Below, piece by piece: positions 13,071-14,872 of a stretch of DNA of 34,819 bases. The stretch's first letter is position 1. Each line of letters begins with the position of its first letter. The notes below the pieces were generated by a model. It did not search any database. It was given only the letters and a program-made list of their open reading frames with translations, and had not been told where the DNA came from. The translations under genes were made by a program, and so were the position numbers. This DNA is from Nitrospirota bacterium (GTDB lineage Bacteria; Nitrospirota; Thermodesulfovibrionia; Thermodesulfovibrionales; Dissulfurispiraceae): assembly GCA_021791055.1 (NCBI GenBank), contig JAJYXI010000050.1:1-34819 (forward strand), given 5' to 3'.

Positions 13071-13451
13071 TTACTTGATTTCTACCTTTGCTCCTTCTGC
13101 CTCGAGTTTTGCCTTCATTGCATCTGCTTCTTCCTTTGAAACGCCGGTCTTAAGAGGCTTTGGTGCTCCGTCAACAAGGTCTTTTGCCTCTTTGAGTCCG
13201 AGCCCTGTCAACTCCCTTACCACCTTAATAACCTGAATCTTCTTGTCTCCGGCAGATGCGAGGACTACATCAAAACTTGTCTTCTCCTCAACTGCCGGGG
13301 CTGCTGCAGCAGCAACCGGTGCGGCTGCAACAGCAACTGGTGCTGCTGCTGTAACACCGTATCTCTCCTCAAATTCCTTGATAAACTGTGACATATCGAG
13401 GATTGTCATGTTATCGATAAAACCAAAAACATCTTCCTTTGTAACTGCCAT
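13071..13451 (-). CDS. rplL: Ribosomal protein L7/L12
   Basis: The protein has 126 residues. The N-terminal dimerisation domain is at about 1-32, an Ala/Pro/Val-rich flexible hinge at about 33-53, and the factor-binding C-terminal domain follows, ending in the usual [13 protein letters not shown]. It forms the ribosome stalk with L10 and recruits EF-Tu and EF-G. The gene follows rplJ after 14 nt with an AGGAGG-type ribosome site, matching the standard rplJ-rplL pair. Confidence 0.97.
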
Positions 13452-13465
13452 TTAACCTTCCTCCT

Positions 13466-13987
13466 TTATGAACTTTTTTTGTTTTTTAATGCTTCCAGTG
13501 CGTATGCAAACTGCGAGAGTGTAGCATTCAATGCACCGGCCAGTTTCGACATCGGCGCCTGCATTGTGCCTGCCAATATGCCAAGAAGAACATTCTTCGG
13601 CGGAAGCTTCGACATGGCCTTGATATCATCGACAGAGCAAAGCCTTCCTTCGATAACGCCGCTTCTCACCTTGAACTTATCGTTCTTGCCGGCGTACTCA
13701 AGAACTTTCTTGGCTGCGGCAATGGGATCTTCAAAACCAAAGGTTATGCCTATTGGACCAACAAACAAATCTGTTGCTGGTTCTGCAGGGGTTCCCTTTG
13801 CAGCGATGCTGCTCAGAGTATTCTTGACAACCTTATACTCAGCGCCAACTTCCTTTAAGATTTTTCTCAGTTCAGCAATCTCTGAAACAGTGAGTCCCTT
13901 ATATTCTGTGAGAACAACCGCCTTTGATCTCGAAAACCTTTCTGATAGTTCTGCTATTTGTTGGGATTTCTTTTCTTTGGTAATCAG
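13466..13987 (-). CDS. rplJ: Ribosomal protein L10, non-canonical start codon
   Basis: This is the stalk base that binds L11/23S rRNA and the L7/L12 dimers. A naive call gives only 100 residues from a TTG at 13768, but the same frame continues upstream through the conserved L10 N-terminus (TKEKKSQQIAELSERF, then AVVLTEYKGLTV). This gives about 173 residues, the normal family length. No ATG, GTG or TTG exists in this frame between the upstream stop and 13768. A perfect AAAGGAGG lies just before ATT-CTG-ATT-ACC. CTG at 13987 has the best spacing (7 nt) and is used here; ATT at 13990 (4 nt) is the alternative. The start is thus either a rare codon or a base error. An L10 leader-like structure lies upstream. 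Confidence 0.9.
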   Translation of the reverse strand: MITKEKKSQQIAELSERFSRSKAVVLTEYKGLTVSEIAELRKILKEVGAEYKVVKNTLSSIAAKGTPAEPATDLFVGPIGITFGFEDPIAAAKKVLEYAGKNDKFKVRSGVIEGRLCSVDDIKAMSKLPPKNVLLGILAGTMQAPMSKLAGALNATLSQFAYALEALKNKKSS

Positions 13988-14022
13988 AATCCTTCCTCCT
14001 TTCCCAGAGACCTCGAAAACAG

Positions 14023-14074: not shown

Positions 14075-14142
14075 CTGTCTCGGTAGGCTGGCCAATTAAA
14101 CAACAGGGAATAAATTTTACTCCCTGTTATGCCTACTGTCTC
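14075..14142 (-). promoter_or_regulatory. L10 leader (ribosomal protein autoregulation element)
   Basis: In the 180-bp rplA-rplJ spacer the minus strand folds into an outer stem GTAGGC/GCCTAC (14131-14136 with 14083-14088). An inner hairpin AACAGGGA/TCCCTGTT sits inside it (14102-14109 with 14121-14128). An unpaired TTAATTGGCCA stretch and GCCTACCGAGACAG on the 3' side resemble the conserved part of the Rfam L10_leader. In known cases L10-(L12)4 binds this RNA to repress rplJL. The assignment rests on position and partial motif match. Confidence 0.65.
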
Positions 14143-14169
14143 TGACATTCTTAATGCAGGCAATGCCTG

Positions 14170-14859
14170 CTATGCTACTTTTAACTTTGCAATATCTATC
14201 TTTACACCAATCCCCATTGTAGAGGATATGGTAATCTTCTTTATATATTTCCCTTTTGATGTAGAAGGCTTTGCCTTTGTAACCGATTTTAAGATAGCCA
14301 TTGTATTTTCGAGCAGCTTCTCTTTGTCGAATGAAGCCTTTCCAACAGGGACATGGACAATGCCCGCCTTTTCCACCTTATATTCAACCTTACCTGCTTT
14401 TATCTCCTTTACTGCTTTTGCGATATCAAATGTGACTGTTCCCAGTTTAGGGTTAGGCATAAGCCCCCTCGGGCCAAGAATCTTGCCAAGCTTTCCGACA
14501 AGCCCCATCAAATCAGGCGTGGCAACTGTCTTGTCAAACTCAAGCCAGCCCTGCTGTATCTTTTCGACAAGGTCTTCCGCTCCAACATAGTCTGCGCCCG
14601 CATCCTTGGCTTCCTTTTCCTTTTCTCCCTTTGCAAAAACCAATACCCTTACTGTTTTGCCAGTCCCGTATGGAAGAACCACTGTTCCCCTTACCATCTG
14701 GTCAGACTTCTTCGCATCAACGCCGAGGTTTATCGCCATATCAACTGTTTCATCGAACTTTGTAAATTTGCTCTCTTTTACAAGAGCAATCGCTTCCTCT
14801 ATGGAATATTCCTTATTCAAATCTATATTTGATCTTGCACTGTCCATCTTCTTTCCCAT
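14170..14859 (-). CDS. rplA: Ribosomal protein L1
   Basis: The protein has about 229 residues, the usual length, with typical L1 motifs: an early E-A-I-A-L-V-K-E, then [11 protein letters not shown] and [18 protein letters not shown]1 binds 23S rRNA at the L1 stalk and in many bacteria represses its own operon. An ATG two codons earlier (14865) is only 2 nt from the GGAGG. The ATG at 14859 has 8-nt spacing and is preferred. It follows rplK closely; the L10 leader lies downstream. Confidence 0.96.
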
Positions 14860-14872
14860 TTTCATTCCCTCC

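Follow-up and report, generated by a model that had tools for sequence, protein, structure and literature searches.

A CTG start codon conserved in the ribosomal protein L10 gene rplJ of most Thermodesulfovibrionia

In bacteria, a known case of a conserved rare start codon is the essential translation gene infC, which starts with AUU, AUA or AUC and against whose start IF3 discriminates. Other rare bacterial starts are usually dismissed as noise or misannotation. CUG makes up 0.024% of the annotated bacterial start codons, and in E. coli reporters it reached 0.86% of the activity of AUG (PMC11497404). Moreover, compensation between the start codon and the Shine-Dalgarno (SD) sequence is known in general, and in other bacteria substitutions that lead to AUG are favoured (PMC5622118). 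The ribosomal protein L10 is encoded in the same operon as L12, which is present in several copies, namely four, per ribosome (PMC2904383). In B. subtilis, the L10-binding structure of the leader RNA competes with an alternative pairing that is used for attenuation (PMC4538822). No description of an rplJ gene with a CUG (CTG) start was found in the literature searched; since most subscription journals were not covered, this is only weak evidence of novelty.

The start codon of rplJ in the window and in its relatives

In the window, which is the whole stretch of 34,819 nucleotides that was analysed, the genes rplK-rplA-rplJ-rplL-rpoB-rpoC follow each other on the minus strand, and this order fits the neighbourhood expected for L10 (Table 1). 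The rplJ frame meets the requirement for membership in the L10 family (PF00466, E = 1.5e-26, 93.6 bits, gathering score 22.8), and the PF00466 search identified it as the sole L10 copy in the genome. According to a preliminary description made from the sequence alone, this frame lacks ATG, GTG and TTG up to residue 74, so that an essential ribosomal gene adjoining an L10 leader has a rare start codon. Both claims held. The translation of the window revealed none of the three codons between the upstream stop and codon 74 counted from CTG, where the first common start, a TTG at 13768, is located. On the minus strand, the SD sequence AAAGGAGG (14002-13995) is followed by AAGG, ATT (13990-13988), CTG (13987-13985) and ATT (13984-13982), and the frame continues after the CTG with ATT ACC AAA GAA AAG AAA TCC CAA. 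The order ATT-CTG-ATT behind the SD had also been described correctly, and the span singled out at that time (13982-13995) includes the CTG and the ATT behind it as well as a part of the SD. The choice between CTG and ATT had been left undecided.

Table 1. Features of the rplJ locus in the window
Feature	Position	Strand	Basis or remark
rplJ, ribosomal protein L10, 173 aa from CTG	13466..13987	minus	PF00466 match, translation, class alignment (173 genes)
rplJ start codon CTG	13985..13987	minus	class start column and few changes on the tree
Shine-Dalgarno AAAGGAGG	13995..14002	minus	7 nt before CTG; within the order-wide conserved motif GTCTCTGGGAAAGGAGG
rplL (L12), ATG start, next operon gene	13071..13451	minus	ATG in 58/58 relatives
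rplA (L1), ATG start, upstream of the leader	14170..14865	minus	ATG in every relative scored
Leader element A, GTCAGAGACAGTAGG	14132..14146	minus	5' side of the L10-leader core; pairs with B or C
Leader element B, CCTACCGAGAC	14077..14087	minus	3' side of the L10-leader core; covaries with A
Leader element C, GTCTCTG	14005..14011	minus	directly upstream of the SD; complementary to A

For the comparison, rplJ genes were sampled from relatives at the genus, family, order, class and phylum level and supplemented with 74 leader-motif matches in named genomes, which are mostly Nitrospirota or Thermodesulfovibrionales records. The few remaining motif matches, for instance in Clostridia records, are mostly without L10 at the match and apparently due to chance. 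After removal of duplicates, 173 distinct genes of the class were obtained, L10-bearing motif matches being counted as class members, and 31 rplJ genes of the phylum from outside this class served as the comparison set; beyond Nitrospirota, only the motif scan was performed. The start was chosen by a script as the in-frame NTG codon with the best SD, which was available in every gene.

Within the class, the start column contains CTG in 143 of the 173 genes, ATG in 19 and TTG in 11, and the codons CTA, CTC, CTT, TTA and GTG are absent. None of the 31 genes from outside the class has CTG at this position (ATG 11, GTG 10, TTG 10). Among the rplJ genes of the same family (n = 27), the homologous codon is CTG in 24 cases, TTG in two and ATG in one. 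The finding that would have refuted the preliminary description, relatives all having ATG at the homologous codon, was looked for and not obtained, as the relatives mostly have CTG. CTG is used by the families f1, f2, f5-f7, f9-f13, c14, c15, c16, c17, c19 and c41 and by a part of f4, ATG by f3, f8 and the other part of f4, and TTG by c18, c40 and a few single genomes. Thus, the criterion derived from infC, one rare start at the homologous position in many genera, is met for most of the class families sampled.

The surroundings of the CTG are much less uniform, with 21 forms of the preceding and 12 forms of the following codon among the CTG genes. The distance between GGAGG and CTG ranges from 5 to 9 nt over the class (mostly 6), and the sequence upstream of the CTG is therefore not coding. 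Furthermore, many genomes contain an in-frame stop one to two codons before the CTG, and the next common start follows 24-60 codons further on. For instance, the loci L155, L135 and L095 read TAA-CTG-AAC, TAG-CTG-AAA and TAG-CTG-AAC, respectively, and have their next common start at codon 33-36. A start upstream of the CTG was also tested and rejected. By contrast with the start column, the conserved internal leucine columns of L10 use all six codons, with a CTG share of about 20-40%. On the L10 tree, 11 changes of the start codon occurred within the class, compared with 44-61 changes of the conserved internal leucine codons and 20-37 of two-fold codons; this tree was built from one short protein. 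The identity of the codon and its conservation across the class show that rplJ starts at a genuine CTG, by which the ambiguity between CTG and ATT is resolved in favour of CTG. This start is likely to be ancestral to the class, which is Thermodesulfovibrionia (Nitrospirota) judging from record titles such as Thermodesulfovibrionales, and to have been kept across most of it. In one assembly (G205:C83:10247-10539), the L10 match falls into two overlapping pieces, suggesting a frameshift of rplJ in that assembly.

The start codon also goes along with the quality of the ribosome-binding site. The CTG genes have a near-perfect SD (mean -12.0 kcal/mol), whereas the SD of the class ATG genes is weaker (mean -9.9) and the spacing is mostly 3-5. 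With the identical motif GTCTCTGGGAAAGGAGG, the distance is 5-7 nt for CTG and 1-4 nt for ATG. We infer that a site whose overall strength is held low would show such a pattern. However, few independent changes (about 11 on the tree) underlie this association of the start codon with SD strength.

The leader RNA between rplA and rplJ

The region upstream of rplJ contains the L10-leader core AGACAG-YAGG / UUAAU / CCUACCGAG, which meets the criterion set for the core. The gathering criterion of the Rfam covariance model RF00557 was not met, and no match to this model was found in the window. In relatives, RF00557 aligns to the leader core with scores below the threshold of 44 bits (31.9 in L085, 30.2 in L088 and 21.6 in L033). 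Rfam matches to U6, sraA and IS009 in the leader region were sub-threshold and were rejected as chance matches.

The elements A and B covary (TAGG/CCTA, CAGG/CCTG and CGGG/CCCG). Moreover, a helix of 8-13 nt between A and C exists in most, if not nearly all, leader-bearing genomes of the class. A compensating change in this helix is present in L110 and L130 (CGGAGAC with GTCTCCG), while L144 and L154 have a mismatch at the same position. In family f10, A and C pair in a shifted register (CTGCTGTC/GACAGCAG in L085), and the swap control for this family was modest, with 7.5 for the own pairs and 5.9 and 6.8 for the swapped ones. The A-B and A-C pairings are mutually exclusive. In the predicted minimum free energy fold of this locus, the A-C helix is formed and the SD is free (0.92), and blocking of A lowers the predicted accessibility of the SD to 0.50; this effect is small or absent in other loci. 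A switch between A-B and A-C therefore remains a suggestion.

Several other structures were observed in the leaders. On the minus strand of the window, a stable hairpin (AACAGGGAGTAAAATTTATTCCCTGTT, 14094-14129) is followed by GTTT and may be a part of the apical arm of the leader or an attenuator. In the f4 loci with ATG (L093, L099, L115 and L123), CTCC or TCCTCC occurs just upstream of GGTCTCTGGGAAAGGAGG; this stretch might mask the SD through base pairing, which would place element C in the loop. In L032, L034, L029 and L033 (f2, f12 and f9), a hairpin CTTTCCC-(C)GTCTCT-GGGAAAG extends over the 5' portion of the SD and also holds element C in its loop, which makes it a possible SD-sequestering alternative.

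The leader and the CTG can be separated from each other. In all ten genomes of family f11, the rplA stop lies 1-3 nt before the CTG, the leader is absent and the CTG is kept; therefore, the leader is not what preserves the CTG. The four c19 genes also have CTG with only 37-101 nt between rplA and rplJ. Conversely, f8 and a part of f4 combine the complete leader motif with an ATG start, and it follows that neither of the two requires the other. The earlier idea that a weak start acts together with the leader thus has to be qualified, because mutual dependence does not exist. The position of the rplA stop next to the CTG in the f11 loci (L035, L036, L098, L103, L105, L109, L113, L118, L128 and L129) suggests translational coupling of rplJ to rplA.

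Explanations for the conserved CTG

In our view, the CTG, preceded by a near-perfect SD, would be a start codon of deliberately low strength, at which the ordinary fMet-tRNA would read CUG despite mispairing at the first position. The weak codon may keep the initiation of L10 low relative to that of the downstream L12, which starts with ATG and of which several copies per L10 are required. Since L12 is needed in several copies, a weak rplJ start in front of the ATG of rplL could be inferred to be a simple way of setting the ratio. The CTG would also render L10 synthesis sensitive to the fidelity of initiation (IF3), and the limit that it imposes would act beside the L10 leader, which would carry the autoregulation. 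The likely and best explanation, in our opinion, is that a weak start restricts L10 in relation to L12 and that autoregulation operates alongside. However, the weak initiation, the stoichiometry and the IF3 sensitivity are inferred and no expression data are available; the limitation of L10 synthesis proposed in the preliminary description thus remains an inference, too. It can be objected that the weakness of CUG is taken from E. coli, and it is possible that with a perfect SD the site is not weak. Moreover, f3, f8, a part of f4, c18 and c40 do manage with ATG or TTG. According to a bolder reading, for and against which we see equally good grounds, CUG would be a hard-wired setting of the stoichiometry, low L10 initiation being selected throughout the class and the ATG lineages having compensated through a weaker SD or spacing.

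Some explanations accept the CTG as the start without regulation by its weakness. The codon could be conserved through base pairing in the leader RNA, as the start adjoins the leader, most of the class has the leader motif together with CTG, and f3 has lost the A-C helix and has ATG. This is unlikely because the leader-less f11 and the c19 genes with their short intergenic regions retain CTG without exception, while f8 and a part of f4 have ATG despite the full leader motif. It is also improbable, though somewhat less so, that the CTG is a historical relic under weak selection, in which the strong SD compensates and nothing is regulated. Indeed, a near-perfect SD and an optimal spacing accompany the CTG, and such compensation is known generally (PMC5622118). 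However, AUG is only one base away and is favoured elsewhere (PMC5622118), yet about 11 changes occurred class-wide and none of them led to GTG. Furthermore, the class might have an altered initiation machinery for which CUG is an ordinary start, as CTG is retained over the whole class. There is very little room for this explanation. In the same loci, rplL (58/58) and rpoB (54/54) start with ATG, and neither rplA (55 scored) nor rplK (48 scored) has a CTG start. The full-length open reading frames of the S10-alpha ribosomal cluster of this genome begin with ATG, GTG or TTG; these genes were identified by order and size and not tested one by one, and the claim of gene specificity is limited to this cluster and to the neighbouring genes in relatives. 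The initiator tRNA, a confirmed tRNA-Met, has a single exact standard anticodon arm (GGGCTCATAACCC), and a variant initiator tRNA was sought in this genome but not found. The infC gene of this genome (L259 1485-1487, contig C29) starts with ATA after GGAGGTGATAGC, and this rare codon is expected with a working IF3 discrimination. The infC starts were obtained at 17 of 30 loci, the strict motif having missed 13, and comprise 16 ATA (own genome and 15 relatives) and one ATC. For the loci scored, the class thus also keeps the known IF3-type rare start in infC, and the parallel to infC that had been drawn for rplJ is apt.

The remaining alternatives question the codon itself, and both can be practically ruled out. 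Translation from a flanking ATT would be conceivable, since ATT is a known start of infC and is located here on both sides of the CTG. However, among the 143 CTG genes, ATT precedes the CTG in only 6 and follows it in only 21, and both positions vary widely; because of this variability, ATT was rejected as the rplJ start. A sequencing or assembly error could be suspected in a draft assembly of 87 contigs, but the CTG is present in 142 other distinct genes, including those of the single-contig genomes G002, G035, G051, G130, G192 and G283.

If the weak-start explanation is correct, a class-wide CUG in an essential and highly expressed gene would mean that a rare start can be a stable regulatory setting. 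The natural lineages with ATG and short spacing or with a lost leader could be used for testing the role of the start codon. Moreover, gene callers that accept only ATG, GTG and TTG would truncate L10 (here at codon 74) or misplace its start throughout the class.

Comparison with known systems

The L10 leader that mediates autoregulation of rplJL in E. coli and B. subtilis (RF00557) is associated with the same gene and shares the core AGACAGYAGG, the UUAAU stretch and CCUACCGAG with the leader described here. The competition in the B. subtilis leader is analogous to that between the A-B and A-C pairings in the class. Unlike in B. subtilis, the alternative partner C abuts the SD, and translational control is therefore likelier than attenuation in the class. 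The sporadic CUG starts of bacteria are similar in that the initiator tRNA reads CUG (PMC11497404), but they are scattered over single genes, whereas in rplJ a single essential gene has CUG throughout a whole class. A further parallel is infC, which resembles rplJ in having a conserved rare start in an essential translation gene. The two genes differ in that the codon is CUG in rplJ and that L10 does not inspect start codons. Thus, a direct autoregulation of the IF3 type does not apply to rplJ, and only a sensitivity to IF3 is possible.
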